Virus record (IMG/VR): IMGVR_UViG_3300020020_000143 | Location: 1-26,924 of that record | Source: a virus | Strand: one strand, 5' to 3' | DNA length: 26,924 nucleotides | Part shown: positions 11,437-26,924 of the stretch, piece after piece | Position numbering within the stretch: position 1 is the stretch's first letter | How the letters are laid out: each line of letters starts with the position of its first letter | Position numbers and translations under genes: made by a program | The notes under the pieces: generated by a model | Databases searched by the model: none | Seen by the model: only the letters and a program-made list of their open reading frames with translations | Told to the model about the DNA's origin: nothing

Positions 11437-11568
11437 GTGTGTCACTGCAAGTGCTTGATCCAAAATGGCTACGTCGTAACAGCTCGTTAAGGGTTTCGAC
11501 TAATCGCCTGTTGATTTCGTTGATGTTTTTCATGCGTGTGTCAATTTTCCGGAATTCCGTGTGTCACT
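11437..11568. other. attP: Candidate attachment-site region with three GTGTGTCA repeats
   Basis: The 195-base gap between the preceding gene and the integrase stop has no convincing gene. It holds three direct copies of GTGTGTCA (11437-11444, 11536-11543, 11559-11566); the first and third extend to GTGTGTCACT. The last two flank a 10-bp palindrome, CGGAATTCCG (11550-11559), and the third copy covers the integrase stop codon. Repeats beside a tyrosine integrase fit arm-type binding sites of attP. A core sequence cannot be identified without the bacterial attB. Confidence 0.35.
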
Positions 11569-12568
11569 CCGTGTTCGCTTTTCTCCCCATGGCATCCCGC
11601 GCCAGGCGCCGCTGGTCCGCCGCTTCGGTGTACCGCTGCACCTCGCGCAGCGACTTGTGGCCGGACCAGGCCGCTATCTGGTGGACGCTGTAGCCAAGCT
11701 CTGCCATCCGGCGCATTCCCGCCTTTCGCAGTCCATGACTGACGCACTTGGCCGGCAGATCCGCCTTCTCGATCGCGTCCGCCATGAACCGTGTCAGGCC
11801 CGGCCGCGTCATCTGCCGGCCATCTTCGCGCCCGATCAACGTCAATCCTCTTGCTGGGTAGGCCCGCAATGCCTGCTGGATCTCGATGACGATCGGCAAG
11901 CGCAGCTCGGCGCCGGTCTTTTGCTGGACGACGGTTAGCTCGTCGCCGGCAATGTCGGCCCGGCGCATCTTGGCGACATCCCCGACGCGCTGCATGGTGT
12001 AGAGCAGTAGGGCATAGGCGAGGCGCTGGCGCGTTCCCAGCGGCCATCTGGCCTCGAATGTCTGCAGTTCGCCTTCCGTCCATGTGTGGTGCGTCCCGGT
12101 CTTGTAATGGTCGACGCCGATAACGGGATTGGCGTCTACCCAGCCGGCCTTGGTGGCGTATTTGTAAAGCGCCTGCAGCACCCGCTTGGTGAGGTTCGCC
12201 ATGGCCGGCCTGTCGGCAATGTCGGAAACCAGCTTCGCTGCCTGCCTGTGCGTGATGCCGGCGGTGCGGTGCCCGTGCGACTTGGCGATCGGCTCGAGCG
12301 CCGCGCGGTAGGTTTGCCGGCTGGATTGTTTCAGGTTTCGGAACGCGCGCGAGGCGTAGAATTCAGTGATGAGTAGGCCGAGGCTTCCGGCGACTTTTGT
12401 CGTCGGCGCCGGCTTGTCGCCGAGCAGTGCCTGATAGGCGGCCATGAACTCAGGTGATCCGACGTCGCCCGGAAGGGGCTTGCGGACGGCGCCGCGACGG
12501 AAATAGCGCCTGACTTTGCCGGCGCGGTCGCGGTACTCGTTGATATATTTGAGCCTAAGCATAGTCAT
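11564..12568 (-). CDS. int: Tyrosine-family phage integrase
   Basis: The 334-residue protein has the expected order: an N-terminal arm (1-60), a SAM-like core-binding domain (62-145) and a catalytic domain (160-334). The full catalytic set is visible: Arg194 in QRVGDV, Lys217 in the beta-hairpin, His278 and Arg281 in HGLRKAG, His304 in SGHKS, and the nucleophile Tyr313 in QRYTEAAD. It should catalyse site-specific recombination between attP and the host attB. It is leftward, downstream of the PL operon as in lambda, and overlaps its small upstream partner by 14 bases. A start two codons further in (12562) is possible. It appears intact. Confidence 0.93.
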   Translation of the reverse strand: MTMLRLKYINEYRDRAGKVRRYFRRGAVRKPLPGDVGSPEFMAAYQALLGDKPAPTTKVAGSLGLLITEFYASRAFRNLKQSSRQTYRAALEPIAKSHGHRTAGITHRQAAKLVSDIADRPAMANLTKRVLQALYKYATKAGWVDANPVIGVDHYKTGTHHTWTEGELQTFEARWPLGTRQRLAYALLLYTMQRVGDVAKMRRADIAGDELTVVQQKTGAELRLPIVIEIQQALRAYPARGLTLIGREDGRQMTRPGLTRFMADAIEKADLPAKCVSHGLRKAGMRRMAELGYSVHQIAAWSGHKSLREVQRYTEAADQRRLARDAMGRKANTE

Positions 12569-12821: not shown

Positions 12822-13511
12822 TTACGCCAAGCGGAATTGGTTGCGCCGGCGGTAGGCCATGAAGCCCACGCCCGCAAAGCCGAGGATCATCATCGCCCAG
12901 GTCGACGGCTCCGGTACGGCACCTTGAGTGCCGGTGTCGGTGAAGTCGGCGTAGAGGTTGAGCGTGCCGGTGTGATGCTCGCCGACGTACCACTTGTTCA
13001 GACCGGACAGGAACAGGCTGTTTTCGGCCTCAAAGTGAATGTCGGAGATTGCCACGCCAGTGAGGTTGATGGTCGAGAACAGATCAGCCGTGTCCGCTGC
13101 CGAGAACCCGAACGCCCACTCGCCCGCCAGGAACGTCGAGGAGACATTCAGTTCGTAGGTTGAGGTGCCGCCGGTCACGTTGGGGGACGTGAAGTTGAGC
13201 GCCAGGTTGTAGTTGACGTTGGAGTTGGCACCGAACAGCGGCGAGATGCTGTTGTTGGTCCAAGTCAGCTGCGCCAGCAGAACGTCGTTGGCGAACGGAC
13301 TTGCCTCGACCGAGTTGGCAACGTTGTTCGCCACGATCTGGTTGGTGCCGAGGCCCGGCAGCGTCAGGGTATTACCTGATGCGACGGGGCAGTTGGAGAC
13401 GCAGCCGGATACGTTGGAGAACGTACCAGAAGAGTTAAAAGTAACAGTCTCTGCGTTCGCGCCCCCCGCGAATGCAATTAAGGCCGTGGTCGCAAGTAAA
13501 AGTCTTCGCAT
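12822..13511 (-). CDS. PEP-CTERM sorted secreted protein carried by the phage (second copy)
   Basis: The start is the ATG at 13511. It has AAGGAG 6 bases upstream and begins a clean signal peptide ([20 protein letters not shown]); a longer reading from 13586 would bury it. The 229-residue protein has a beta-rich body that is Asn/Ser/Thr-rich. The stretch GTFSNV...GLGTNQIV...[13 protein letters not shown] resembles the 'choice-of-anchor K'/THxN-type domains of PEP-CTERM proteins. The signal VPEPSTWA is at residues 199-206, followed by a hydrophobic helix and RRR. The first 14 residues of its sorting signal match those of the copy at 10175-10858 in all but the last helix turn, though the mature parts differ. 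Host exosortase should process it. It lies within the leftward early operon between int and the small genes. Confidence 0.85.
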
Positions 13512-13589
13512 AGTATACTCCTTGATCAAGAGAAGTGGTTCGGAATGAACCGCAAAAAACAGCAGTGCTTGCGCTTTGCGCTTCATTCG

Positions 13590-23088: not shown

Positions 23089-23614
23089 GAATTACCCGCA
23101 CAACCAGCACGGAGCTACGCGACAGAAAAGACGAGAGATAGAGATCGAGGCTCTGGTGGTGTCATGGATGGCCGAGGTGGATGATCCTCGCTCGTCAGAG
23201 GGGCGAAAAAACGTGCGGGAAACCTTTCTGGAATTCATGCACAGCCCCAAGGGCAAGAAGCATCTCGACGGCATTTTTGAGGCTTGGTTTCAGAACCGTT
23301 ATAGCCATTGGCTTGATCAGGAATTCCCAATTTCCAGAGAAGTGAACTTTAAGCGGGTTGAGCAGATAAAAGCCGAGAACGAAGCGACAGCGGCCAAACT
23401 AACCCAGCATGTAACCAAAGCCATCGAAACCAAGGCACAAATCATCCTGCTCGACATGATGACGCCAACCGGCAAGGCGTTGCGGGATTGCACCGGCAAT
23501 GAGTGCCGGCAGATGGGTGGCTGGTATCTGCAGCTCGCCGATCGGGTGAAGCCAAAGCAGAAGGTTGCTGCTGCGCTTGGGGAAGCTGACGTGCGGAACC
23601 TTTACCCAGAATAA
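23069..23614 (+). CDS. Conserved phage early protein, function unknown
   Basis: The ATG at 23069 has TTGGAG 8 bases upstream and overlaps the preceding gene by 20 bases; a longer reading from 23000 is not supported. The 181-residue protein has a helical N-terminus (RQKRREIEIEALVVSWMAEVDDP). The C-terminus contains LLDMMTPTGKALRDCTGNECRQMGGW and GEADVRNLYPE, a block I recognise in many alphaproteobacterial phages without a known role. CTGNEC could coordinate a metal. Next to primase, it may belong to replication. Confidence 0.65.
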   Translation: MTMQQPENYPHNQHGATRQKRREIEIEALVVSWMAEVDDPRSSEGRKNVRETFLEFMHSPKGKKHLDGIFEAWFQNRYSHWLDQEFPISREVNFKRVEQIKAENEATAAKLTQHVTKAIETKAQIILLDMMTPTGKALRDCTGNECRQMGGWYLQLADRVKPKQKVAAALGEADVRNLYPE

Positions 23615-23633
23615 GTCCCGCCATGAGGTTTCC

Positions 23634-25619
23634 GTGTCCAACCACAACATCCTCGATTTCAACCTGGCGAAACGTCAGGACGAATTGCGCAAGGGCGACA
23701 TCAGCGCGGAGAGCATTCGCGATCGGCTGAATGCGTCTGCGCAGGACTTCGTCCAGTGGCTGTTCTCGGGGCGTGCGCTGGTAGCGCGCGGCGAGGCGCG
23801 GGTTGGCGACGTCATGGGCACGCCGGGAGCTTCGCTCCGGATCTCGCTCTCCGGTGCCGACGCCGGCCTGTGGAAGGATCACGCCACCGAGGAGGGCGGC
23901 GACCTCATTGCGCTCTACCGCGCCAACCAGGGCTATGTGGGAACGGACAACTTCGTCCTGTCCCTGAAAGAGATCGCCAAGGACTATCTCGGCGACGCAG
24001 TCGAGGTTGACCGGCCGGCCTGGCGCCCGACGCCGATCGAGAAGATCGAGGCGGCCAAGGTCAAGCTGGGGACCAAGCCGCGGGACGACATGGTCCTGCT
24101 CGGCGCTCCGGTCGCGACCTATCGGTATTTCGACACGCACGGCAACCTGCTGGCGTCGGTGGTGCGGCACGAGCCTGACGGCACCCGCGCCAGCAAGACG
24201 TTCCGGCCATGGTGTTACCGCCAAGGCAAGTGGGTGCCGGGCGCGCCGGACCTTCGGCCGCTGTATCACCTGCCGACAGTTGCGACATCGCCGGCCGTGG
24301 TGCTGGTCGAGGGCGAGGGCAAGGCGGATGCCCTGCACAGCGTCGGGGTGGTCGCCACGTCGGCCATGCAGGGCGCGAGGGCGCCGATCGAAAAAACTGA
24401 CTGGTCCCCGCTGGCCGGCAAGACGGTGGTGATCTGGCCCGACAATGACGAGCCTGGCATGGTCTATGCCCGCGGCGTCTCGGCCAAACTGACATCGATC
24501 GGGTGCCGGGTGAAGGTCATCACGCCGCCGGCCGACAGGGCGCCAAAGTGGGACGCTGGCGACTGCGTGGCCGAGGGCGGGGACGTCGGTGCCATCCTGC
24601 TGACCGCGGTCGAAGTGACCGGCCAGGCCAAGCCCCGGATCCGCATCCTCGACCTGGACGACCTCGAGAACCTGGCGCCCCCGTCCTTCCTGATTGACGA
24701 GGTGCTGACCGAGGGTGGTTTGTCGGTGCTGTGGGGCCGCTCCGGTGCGATGAAATCATTCGTGGCGCTGGACATGGCCATGTGTGTGGCGGGCGGCATC
24801 CCGTGGCACGGGCGCCCCGTCAAGCAGGGGCTGGTGGTCTACCTCGCCGCGGAAGGTTCGCACGGCCTCGGCCGGCGCGCGATCGGCTGGCGCCGCACAC
24901 GGGGCCGTGATCTGCCCAAGCCCGCCTTCAAGCTGATCCCCCACAGCGTCGCACTCACCAGCGACGACCTGGACGCCATGGTTGTGGCGATACTCGCCCT
25001 GGGCGTCATGCCCGTCCTGATCATCATCGACACCCTTGCGCGCACCTTCGGCGCCGGCGACGAAAACAAGCAAGCCGATATGAATGCTTACGTTTCCGCC
25101 GCCGATCGGCTGCGTGAGGCGACCGGCGCCAATGTCCTGATTGTCCACCATTCCGGCGTCCATGAGGACAAGCGCGAGCGCGGATCCAACGTGCTGCGCG
25201 GCGCCGCCGATACCGTCATCAAGGTCAGCCGCAAGGACAACAAGCTCGACATCATCAATCATGGGCCAGAAGGCAAGCAAAAGGACGCCGAAGAATTCAA
25301 AACGATCAAGCTGGAAACGAAAAAAGTCTTTTTCGAACAAGCAGGTTGCGAGCAATCAACCCTGGTCCTGAACCTTAGAGAAGGCGAAGAACCGGCCGAG
25401 CCAGAGGGCGAGGCAGGGGTGTCATTGGGCAAAGTAGAAAAGCAAATCATCAAGGCACTGAAAGATGCCGGTGAGCCGCTCGGGCTTACCCGGCTGGCGT
25501 TGATGACCGGATCCTACAACACATCCATCACCCGCGCGCTCGATACCCTGAACGAAAAAGACCTGGTCATCCGGGCCGACGACGGGGACGAAAACCGCAA
25601 ACTTTGGAAGCTCGCATGA
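23634..25619 (+). CDS. Primase-helicase fusion (Toprim plus RepA-like ATPase)
   Basis: The GTG at 23634 with GAGG upstream gives 661 residues beginning MSNHNILDFNLAKRQDE. Residues 55-100 (GDVMGTPGASLRISLSG, WKDHATEEGGDLIALYRA) resemble the N-terminal domain of primase fusions but lack the four zinc cysteines. Toprim motifs are VVLVEGEGKADAL (222-234, Glu226) and VVIWPDNDEPG (265-275, Asp270/Asp272). The helicase part has Walker A GRSGAMKS (368-375), VVYLAAEGSHGLG (401-413), Walker B VLIIIDTLAR (461-470, Asp466) and VHHSG (504-508). A C-terminal winged-helix-like tail (600-661) may contact origin DNA. It should unwind and prime at the phage origin, which may be the adjacent iteron block. Confidence 0.88.
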   Translation: MSNHNILDFNLAKRQDELRKGDISAESIRDRLNASAQDFVQWLFSGRALVARGEARVGDVMGTPGASLRISLSGADAGLWKDHATEEGGDLIALYRANQGYVGTDNFVLSLKEIAKDYLGDAVEVDRPAWRPTPIEKIEAAKVKLGTKPRDDMVLLGAPVATYRYFDTHGNLLASVVRHEPDGTRASKTFRPWCYRQGKWVPGAPDLRPLYHLPTVATSPAVVLVEGEGKADALHSVGVVATSAMQGARAPIEKTDWSPLAGKTVVIWPDNDEPGMVYARGVSAKLTSIGCRVKVITPPADRAPKWDAGDCVAEGGDVGAILLTAVEVTGQAKPRIRILDLDDLENLAPPSFLIDEVLTEGGLSVLWGRSGAMKSFVALDMAMCVAGGIPWHGRPVKQGLVVYLAAEGSHGLGRRAIGWRRTRGRDLPKPAFKLIPHSVALTSDDLDAMVVAILALGVMPVLIIIDTLARTFGAGDENKQADMNAYVSAADRLREATGANVLIVHHSGVHEDKRERGSNVLRGAADTVIKVSRKDNKLDIINHGPEGKQKDAEEFKTIKLETKKVFFEQAGCEQSTLVLNLREGEEPAEPEGEAGVSLGKVEKQIIKALKDAGEPLGLTRLALMTGSYNTSITRALDTLNEKDLVIRADDGDENRKLWKLA

Positions 25620-25759
25620 TCAAAGTTCCATTGGTATCGTTAGTATCGTTTTTAGTATCGCGATACTGGTCGAAAAAGAGGTATCGTTGGTATCCCCCCC
25701 CTTTAGGGGGATACAAACGATACTTCGACCGATACCCCGGTGGCGGGGTAGCACCATGA
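25616..25759 (+). CDS. 47-codon repeat-coded ORF linking primase-helicase and next gene
   Basis: An ATG at 25616 overlaps the primase-helicase stop (ATGA), and the frame ends in a TGA that overlaps the next ATG (ATGA). The ORF thus exactly fills the gap. The product has Val-Ser repeats at its start (VSLVSFLVS), then basic and aromatic residues (KKRYRW) and Gly/Pro. The DNA is a block of GTATCG iterons and inverted repeats, so the coding content may be a by-product of the repeats. No ribosome-binding site other than coupling is seen. Whether it is translated is unknown. Confidence 0.4.
   Translation: MIKVPLVSLVSFLVSRYWSKKRYRWYPPPLGGYKRYFDRYPGGGVAP
25634..25735. repeat. GTATCG iteron/inverted-repeat block, candidate replication origin
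   Basis: GTATCG occurs at 25634, 25643, 25655 and 25681, with GTATCC at 25690. CGATAC or GGATAC occurs at 25661, 25709, 25718 and 25730. Spacings of 9 and 12 recur. The 18-base arm 25681-25698 pairs with 25706-25723 with one mismatch, giving a very stable hairpin with a 7-base loop (25699-25705). The symmetry extends outward through GGTCGAA (25668-25674) and its complement at 25724-25730. Iterons beside a primase-helicase suggest an origin; an mRNA regulatory hairpin is an alternative. Confidence 0.8.
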
Positions 25760-26286
25760 CCCGCCGCAAATCCCTCGCCAGCCGGGAGCCGTCAGGCAAA
25801 GTCCGGCGCCCCCCGCGCGCCGACCCAACCCTGCCGTCCCCCACCGAGGTCACCCGCCTCCGCGACGCAGCCCTCGCCGGCATGCGAGACGCCGTCTGGT
25901 CAACTCCGCTCGGGTGGCTGTACCTCTCGGGCCGCCTGTCCGGATCCCAGTTCGCCGCCGGCCGCCGCTGGGCCGACCTCGCCCGCGACTACTCCGCCGC
26001 TACCCAGTCCCCCAAGGCGCCCAGATCCGCCAACCTCGACCCCGCCGGGGGCCAGCCACCAGACCCGGATAGCCCCGCAGGCCTCAGGGAAGCCCAGCAG
26101 CACGCCCACACCCTGCACCAGTACATCTCAGCCCTCGCCATCCTCAACGTCTCGGGCACCCCCGCCAGGCGCGCCGTGGAGGCCATCTGCGAGCAAGGCC
26201 AGATGCCGGCCGGCCACCACCAACTCGCATCCCTCGGGGTTGGCCTGACCGTCCTGTCCATCTACTGGTCGGATCGGCGCCGATGA
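25756..26286 (+). CDS. Conserved phage protein, function unknown
   Basis: The ATG at 25756 is coupled (ATGA) to the preceding small ORF; a longer frame from 25687 would run through the iteron block. The 176-residue protein has a basic, Pro-rich start (MTRRKSLASREPSGKVRRPPR). The core WSTPLGWLYLSGRLSGSQFAAGRRWADL is shared, in my memory, with small proteins near the replication end of rhizobial phage genomes. The C-terminus (ALAILNVSGTPARRAVEAICEQG) is helical. The coding strand is unusually C-rich compared with the neighbours. No catalytic motif. Confidence 0.7.
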   Translation: MTRRKSLASREPSGKVRRPPRADPTLPSPTEVTRLRDAALAGMRDAVWSTPLGWLYLSGRLSGSQFAAGRRWADLARDYSAATQSPKAPRSANLDPAGGQPPDPDSPAGLREAQQHAHTLHQYISALAILNVSGTPARRAVEAICEQGQMPAGHHQLASLGVGLTVLSIYWSDRRR

Positions 26287-26609
26287 TCAGGGTAGAACTC
26301 GGCGAGGAAGTAAACCGACACGGGAAATGGCGCTGGACCTGCCCCCGCTACGCGCTGGCTGGAATTTCCAAATCCCCGCTACTTGACGCCTGCCGGCAAA
26401 TTAAACGCATGGGCGGCGACACCACAGCGGCTGTAGGGCTATTCCGCGAGGCACGGTCGGTGCCGGACTCGACATGCACCGTCGGGTGGGGTGCTGACCA
26501 CATCGTCTCCGAGCCGGACAGGGGCGGCGGGCCACGATTCGCCAAGTGGCAGGCTCACCCCATGGCAATGATCAGGCTCACCGGAGGACAAAATGGGAAC
26601 AAGAAATAA
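26283..26609 (+). CDS. Small phage protein, function unknown
   Basis: The 108-residue product overlaps the preceding stop by 4 bases (ATGA). It begins MIRVELGEEVNRHGKWRWTCPRYALAGISKSPLLDACRQIK and contains CPR and DAC cysteines plus a Gly/Arg-rich C-terminus. No domain is recognised. It is the last clearly coupled gene of the rightward early operon before the terminator. Confidence 0.6.
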   Translation: MIRVELGEEVNRHGKWRWTCPRYALAGISKSPLLDACRQIKRMGGDTTAAVGLFREARSVPDSTCTVGWGADHIVSEPDRGGGPRFAKWQAHPMAMIRLTGGQNGNKK

Positions 26610-26734
26610 CACTCCCGCGTTGCAGCCACTGCACCGTATTGTACCAAGGTACAATGTTGACAAGCGGACATAAGCAGTGTCCGGTGTGTGAAGTCGGACC
26701 CGCGCCAAAAACGCGGGTTTTTTCATGGACTTAG
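26546..26734 (+). CDS. Small zinc-ribbon ORF with uncertain start
   Basis: The frame encodes RCSHCTVLYQG and KQCPVC, a C-x2-C-x16-C-x2-C zinc-ribbon. The only in-frame start is a GTG at 26546, deep within the preceding gene. The strong ribosome-binding site GGAGGA (26583-26588) points to an ATG at 26593, which is in a different frame and gives only 26 codons. Either the start is the GTG, or one base separates the true ATG from the zinc-ribbon frame. The ORF reads through the terminator stem at 26699-26717 and stops at 26734, which is also unusual. Confidence 0.4.
   Translation: MAGSPHGNDQAHRRTKWEQEITLPRCSHCTVLYQGTMLTSGHKQCPVCEVGPAPKTRVFSWT
26698..26723 (+). terminator. Rho-independent terminator of the early operon
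   Basis: CCCGCG (26699-26704) pairs with CGCGGG (26712-26717) across a 7-base loop and is followed by six T (26718-26723). It separates the early operon from the packaging genes to the right and is a likely target for late antitermination. Confidence 0.8.
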
Positions 26735-26739
26735 CTGGA

Positions 26740-26763
26740 TGATTGTAATCATTTAGGCTAAAT
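26740..26763. promoter_or_regulatory. Adjacent AT-rich palindromes before the late genes
   Basis: TGATTGTAATCA (26740-26751) and ATTTAGGCTAAAT (26751-26763, exact 6-base arms) lie back to back in the 68-base gap between the terminator region and the next gene. They are candidate operators of a late promoter. No clear -35/-10 pair was found. Confidence 0.45.
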
Positions 26764-26802
26764 GTTCCATAATCTTCCTAAATAGTTGAGGCTTCAAAAC
26801 AA

Positions 26803-26924
26803 GTGACCTTCGTCAAGGGCAAATCAGGCAATCCAGGCGGTCGACCAACCGAAAAGCCGTTCGCCGACGCGCTGAAGATGGAAATTGCCGCAGCCGGCCG
26901 CGATCAGAAGGCCTTGCGAGCGAT
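26803..26924 (+). CDS. Start of a DUF5681-type phage protein (3' end outside window)
   Basis: The GTG at 26803 opens MTFVKGKSGNPGGRPTEKPF, then DALKMEIAAAGRD, and runs off the window. The opening GKSGNPGGRP and the following block are hallmarks of DUF5681-type proteins. These sit just upstream of, and may act as or beside, the small terminase subunit in alphaproteobacterial phages. Its position after the terminator and palindromes marks the beginning of the late packaging module. The ribosome-binding site is weak (TTGAGG about 12 bases upstream). Confidence 0.75.
   Translation, partial: MTFVKGKSGNPGGRPTEKPFADALKMEIAAAGRDQKALRA

Follow-up and report, generated by a model that had tools for sequence, protein, structure and literature searches.

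Iterons that covary with a C-terminal winged helix mark a probable replication origin behind a phage Twinkle/RepA-type primase-helicase gene

The window analysed here, the whole 26,924-nucleotide stretch of IMG/VR virus record IMGVR_UViG_3300020020_000143, looks like a temperate phage, with tail-fibre genes, an integrase, a CI-like repressor and Sak4-like and Cas4-type recombination genes. A PEP-CTERM/PEPxxWA-CTERM sorted protein encoded on the minus strand (12822–13586) adjoins the phage integrase gene (11564–12568, minus strand) and represents either cargo acquired near the attachment site or host DNA. On the plus strand, a primase-helicase gene occupies positions 23565–25619 (putative start at the first listed codon, TTG; stop codon at 25617–25619). 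Pfam and fold searches indicated that its product combines Toprim, an AAA_25 RecA-fold domain and a C-terminal winged helix, with Pfam scores of 5e-35 for AAA_25, 2e-4 for Toprim and 2e-3 for HTH_IclR. The AAA_25/RepA-type helicase domain spans residues 365–532 (24657–25160, plus strand) and the fold search returned matches to Twinkle and to RSF1010 RepA. Both the Toprim domain and the RecA-fold helicase core of a Twinkle/RepA-type (SF4) protein are present by these searches, and the protein is putatively hexameric. The Pfam search of the primase-helicase gave no SF3/AAA+ core (D5, DUF927 or Primase_Cterm), AAA_25 and Toprim being found instead.

The MarR-like winged helix at the C-terminus (residues ~620–684; 25422–25616, plus strand) is the proposed iteron-binding domain. 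AlphaFold2 predicts helices at residues 623–635, 641–648 and 652–664 and wing strands at 668–671 and 680–683; the domain modelled alone has a pLDDT of 82.5, and it resembles MarR/Z-alpha folds in the PDB. The third helix, NTSITRALDTLNE (residues 652–664; 25518–25556, plus strand), is the predicted recognition helix. A sequence-specific DNA-binding domain at the C-terminus together with iterons, as in the SaPI Rep, P4 alpha and Cch2 initiator helicases, is indicated by sequence and predicted structure. The next gene (25756–26286, plus strand) encodes 176 aa with no Pfam or PHROG family and shares 53% protein identity with a downstream gene of a relative, L016. Past the operon, at 26640–26725, a palindrome, TTGTACCAAGGTACAA, is followed by a GC-rich hairpin and a T run, which look terminator-like by eye and are absent from the output of the terminator scan.

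Directly after the primase-helicase gene, a 102 bp block (25634–25735, both strands) carries nine copies of GTATC, on the plus strand at 25634, 25643, 25655, 25681 and 25690 and on the minus strand at 25662, 25710, 25719 and 25731, with start-to-start gaps of 9, 12, 7, 19, 9, 20, 9 and 12. An earlier note on this DNA, made from the sequence alone, had described nine repeats in both orientations within 102 bases with recurring 9- and 12-base spacing, and the computed positions bear this out. The other 26.8 kb of the window contain 20 scattered copies of GTATC and no second cluster. Clustered short near-identical repeats beside a putative initiator gene, a trait of iteron origins, are therefore present; inspection of the block by eye revealed no obvious A+T-rich unwinding element. 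The third and fourth copies form a perfect 12-bp palindrome, the head-to-head pair GTATCGCGATAC (25655–25666), and an equivalent pair with a 0–3 bp gap was present in 18 of 24 blocks examined. A chance repeat was ruled out by the clustering in the window and by the significance, against shuffled sequences, of the blocks of relatives described below.

Within the block, a predicted hairpin (25680–25724) has a stem of 9+9 bp interrupted by a single mismatch, carries two iterons on either arm around a short TTTA-containing loop, and lies within an inverted repeat (25678–25698/25706–25726), in agreement with the single-mismatch hairpin and outer symmetry noticed earlier. The RNA folding comparison that had been suggested gave −72 kcal/mol for 25600–25780 against −50.2 ± 4.7 for shuffled sequences (z = −4.66), the segment being more stable than its shuffles. 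Hairpins without iteron letters were more frequent among family I and near-family blocks (21 of 29) than among control stretches (33 of 87), and the loop contained TA in 12 of these 21 and 2 of these 33, respectively. Such a hairpin could serve as a priming site by analogy with the ssi stem-loops of RSF1010 (PMC4234260).

Relatives were found with the helicase as query in IMG/VR, GTDB genomes and phage records, and the 167 distinct loci with sufficient downstream DNA were counted, a block being considered significant when a 6-mer repeated on both strands ≤230 nt past the helicase stop exceeded all 40 shuffles. Of the 167, 97 carried a significant repeat block immediately past the stop codon of the helicase gene, with approximately 49 different top 5-mers; the prediction that an alignment of related phages would reveal repeats at the same position with changed letters was borne out. 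In the remaining 70 of 167, mostly more distant relatives, the 230 nt tested contained no block that reached significance. Named or isolated phages with a block were AcaML1 (CGTCA x8), Wolbachia phage WO (TGCCA x8) and Idiomarinaceae phage 1N2-2 (GTACA x12), and none was seen in Caulobacter phage GB2A. The relatives also include a prophage of the cultured bacterium Kaistia granuli DSM 23481 (L057). Searching 397 genomes from a single bacterial order yielded two strong matches only, both already in the set, and additional IMG/VR scans added few new close members.

Within the closest family the layout of the block is constant and all copies are altered together (GTATC, GTGGC, GTTGC, CCTGC and others). 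The window and L010 have a common site order and nearly all spacings in common, with GTATC replaced by GTGGC at every site. Similarly, L006 and L002 have common site positions (13, 22, 29/30, 42, 52, 59 and 65) and a C-rich hairpin, and at every one of these positions GTTGC in L006 corresponds to CCTGC in L002. When the window was aligned with L010, the sites were less conserved (21/38) than the linkers (59/81), the nine window copies being identical to one another, and in a second aligned pair of blocks the sites were again less alike (24/44 versus 46/75). Blocks with two words (GTATC and GTGTC in L226 and L138, GTTGC and GTTTC in L012) look like possible intermediates in a change of specificity. 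Ten GTATC 5-mers are also present in L046, a distant relative with a different helicase C-terminus, and look like convergence. Away from the iteron block, a separate dense CGCTGC repeat of 11 copies was observed at L289 7570–7700 (the contig of L222).

Covariation of the iterons with the helicase was scanned in 23 family I loci using approximately 650 windows of 12 alignment columns over the entire protein, local identity being compared with similarity of the block 5-mer profile after removal of overall identity. The best predictor of the iteron 5-mer profile was residues 651–662, with a partial r of 0.44 that 0 of 5000 permutations reached (permutation maximum averaging 0.18) in a test that shuffles the 23 loci and does not fully model the tree. 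With near-duplicates dropped, the same residues gave a partial r of 0.41 (0 of 3000 permutations). These residues overlap the recognition helix (652–664) of the separately made AlphaFold2 model. In family II the motif follows overall protein identity (r 0.79), and since it tracks the whole protein the covariation there is not localisable. Individual variants are suggestive of stepwise change rather than of an established code: NKG to NDG accompanies GTTGC to CCTGC, and GDKGSF, GDKGNF and GDSGNL accompany GTGGC, GTGTC and CTGTC. The recognition helices of the window and L010 are of NTSI and KKSL type, respectively. These comparisons suggest that relatives rewrite the letters of the array together with the helicase part expected to read them.

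The window is mosaic at this point. Its helicase core is 87–90% identical to those of L002 and L016, compared with only 43% for the winged helix, which is instead 72–78% identical to those of L010 and L226, phages whose cores are only 53–56% identical to that of the window. At the DNA level identity switches lineage at ~25440, and similarity to L226 and L138 (mostly 72–80%) reaches into the block, to ~25740, past which identity drops and the next gene is again L016-lineage-like. The positions of this switch and of its end indicate that the winged helix and the block travelled together and, as judged from sequence identity, the winged-helix coding part and the iteron block (25440–25740) are exchanged between phages as one cassette. 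The functional unit thus appears to reach upstream to ~25440, inside the winged-helix coding sequence.

The block is also crossed by a 47-codon ORF (25616–25759, plus strand) with ATGA overlaps at both ends, one with the helicase stop (25616–25619) and one with the ATG of the next gene (25756–25759), as previously described. Of the 11 family I loci whose helicase stop forms an NTGA overlap, 10 have an open block frame (2.6 expected from shuffles), the other two frames being open in 4 and 2 of the same loci, whereas the frame is open in 1 of 12 family I loci with a helicase end lacking this overlap. In family II, 44 of the 47 loci with an NTGA overlap have an open block frame (19.3 expected), a count that overstates independence because these loci are mutually related. 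The peptides encoded are unrelated in sequence among relatives, which ruled out a conserved small protein; as the frame stays open all the same, what is maintained seems to be the frame and not the peptide, which would fit a coupling of translation to the next gene. The translational coupling proposed in the earlier note therefore survives for NTGA loci, in which the frame is open above expectation, but without a conserved peptide and not for the other family I loci, which mostly have no ORF. Its further suggestion that codon-compatible spacing constrains the repeats was not upheld: gaps between sites modulo 3 gave remainders 0:1:2 of 72:57:35, not generally multiples of three, and 9-bp spacings are also present in untranslated blocks, so that codon-driven spacing was ruled out. 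The Val-Ser-rich character ascribed to the ORF is merely GTATCG read in frame. In L199 and other family II loci a frame crosses the block, entering in L199 an apparent RuvC-like resolvase gene, and in AcaML1 (L307) a putative polynucleotidyltransferase gene follows the block.

The block is probably a replication origin whose iterons would be bound by the helicase's own C-terminal winged helix, an interpretation that draws on sequence comparison and a structural model. The sequences support the array, its conserved place and layout, the concerted change of its copies, the covariation with the recognition helix and the exchange of the cassette. Base composition is supportive without being proof: the detrended cumulative GC skew reaches its minimum 171–239 bp from the block in 4 of 8 long relative contigs (G003, G008, G009 and G010, two of which, G008 and G009, are related), with genes on both sides of the block mostly on one strand. 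The minimum lies 1.5 kb from the block in G006 and does not coincide with it in G004, G005 and G007; the window contig ends 1.2 kb past the block, too soon to judge, with a skew maximum nearby. The reading of the iterons as a phage origin in the earlier note is thus strengthened by conserved position and layout, helix covariation and cassette exchange, and the cumulative GC-skew check that it proposed is in agreement for half of the long relatives.

That the winged-helix-bound iterons are instead an operator or other cis-acting control element (serving autorepression, control of copy number or handcuffing of the kind seen at P4 crr) and not a start site is unlikely. Iteron elements with control roles occur in P4 and in iteron plasmids, and the covariation indicates cognate recognition only, not replication. 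The block, however, lies behind a gene and not at a promoter, a scan of 25300–26924 having given no promoter-like site, and the window has no other array, while in most of the long relatives examined no motif cluster is denser than the block. The skew data bear on both sides: 4 of 8 contigs have their minimum at the block, which argues for a start site, and the half of long relatives without one argue for a control element. It is very improbable that the block is an RNA element, a structured translated leader controlling translation of the next gene with repeats serving RNA folding: the strong RNA fold and the ATGA coupling and open frame maintained in NTGA loci are in keeping with this, but the sites are found in either orientation and change in step with a DNA-recognition helix, the ORF is missing in about half of family I, and homologues of the next gene of the window lie behind few relatives' blocks only. 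Moreover, no Rfam match of note was obtained for the block, and the scan of 25300–26924 placed no intrinsic terminator at its hairpin. A recombination, partition or packaging site for another phage protein, behind the helicase by chance, would suit the Sak4-like and Cas4-type exonuclease recombination genes upstream on the same strand but is scarcely to be expected, as the recognition helix of the helicase itself predicts the iteron word and is exchanged together with it, and no other protein is needed as explanation.

For the block as an origin we infer binding, melting, ring loading, hairpin priming and a start of replication at the block. The primase-helicase from the adjoining upstream gene would bind the nine GTATC copies via its own winged helix; the head-to-head sites would suit a pair of winged helices, and direct repeats 9 bp apart would place neighbours on nearly one DNA face. 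The bound helicase would assemble as a ring and open the DNA, and its Toprim domain would then prime, perhaps at the exposed hairpin. The open frame over the array would, in many relatives, probably keep ribosomes moving on to the next gene. Iteron word and recognition helix would change in step with each other and be passed from phage to phage as a cassette of ~300 bp.

No description of this array was found in the open-licence PMC literature, and a description elsewhere is possible. The closest systems in mechanism appear to be SaPI Rep/ori, SCCmec Cch2 and P4 alpha, from which the window differs by its Twinkle/RepA-type (SF4) helicase; judged by its Pfam domains and fold matches, the window protein falls outside the SaPI Rep, P4 alpha and Cch2 helicase families. 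According to PMC7581432, which cites Ubeda 2007, SaPI Rep uses its C-terminal domain to bind short iterons immediately 3' of its gene, and the system there resembles that proposed for the window in having a self-loading helicase, C-terminal iteron recognition and an origin downstream of its own gene. SaPI Rep has a DUF927 or D5/Primase_Cterm helicase, unlike the Toprim and RecA-fold AAA_25 of the window. In the putative SCCmec origin, 5-nt iterons (AAGTG) and inverted repeats lie behind the Cch2 helicase gene and are bound by the isolated C-terminal domain (PMC7581432). Short iterons and inverted repeats behind a helicase gene are likewise found in the window, but Cch2 is a D5-type 3'-5' helicase with three iterons and a separate primase, whereas in the window the iterons number nine and the primase, which has another fold, is fused to the helicase.

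P4 alpha unites a Toprim-type primase, a helicase and a C-terminal winged helix in one iteron-binding protein (PMC4234260). This fusion, which acts with ori1/crr, is the feature that it has in common with the window. The P4 alpha helicase is SF3, another type than that of the window, and P4 iterons are not known to form an array immediately behind the alpha gene. RSF1010, with iterons and short stem-loops (ssi) used for priming (PMC4234260), is like the window in its RecA-fold RepA helicase (a structural match), iterons and stem-loops, but divides iteron binding (RepC), helicase and primase (RepB') among three separate proteins. The pRN1 origin is, like that proposed here, a stem-loop just 3' of the gene for a primase-helicase with a C-terminal winged helix, and is conserved in structure and not in sequence (PMC4234260); its ORF904 differs in having an archaeo-eukaryotic prim/pol, an SF3 helicase and no iterons. 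In PLE RepA/ori the DNA-binding domain of the initiator covaries with the origin, and the two are swapped as one module (PMC8263062); RepA is not a helicase of the window's type, and its initiator domain is N-terminal. In geminivirus Rep/iterons, positions are conserved and sequences diverse (PMC12548392), in a rolling-circle system whose Rep is likewise not a helicase of the window's type.

A wider generalization is offered tentatively, as a possibility rather than a probability. Widespread phage Twinkle/RepA-type (SF4) primase-helicases may be their own origin-binding initiators, with helix and word diversifying rapidly and in step on a fixed scaffold under pressure from conflict or incompatibility among phages that co-infect, a simple residue-to-base code readable from natural variants and an origin that in many is also kept as a translated frame. 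The origin proposed for the window would show how a Twinkle/DnaB-like helicase can locate its start site when no separate initiator or loader takes part. The approximately 20 matched helix-iteron pairs would form a natural series for how an initiator retargets all copies at once. Arrays of this kind would also be a simple guide to candidate origins across many uncultured phages, and would allow incompatibility of origins to be tested in related phages.
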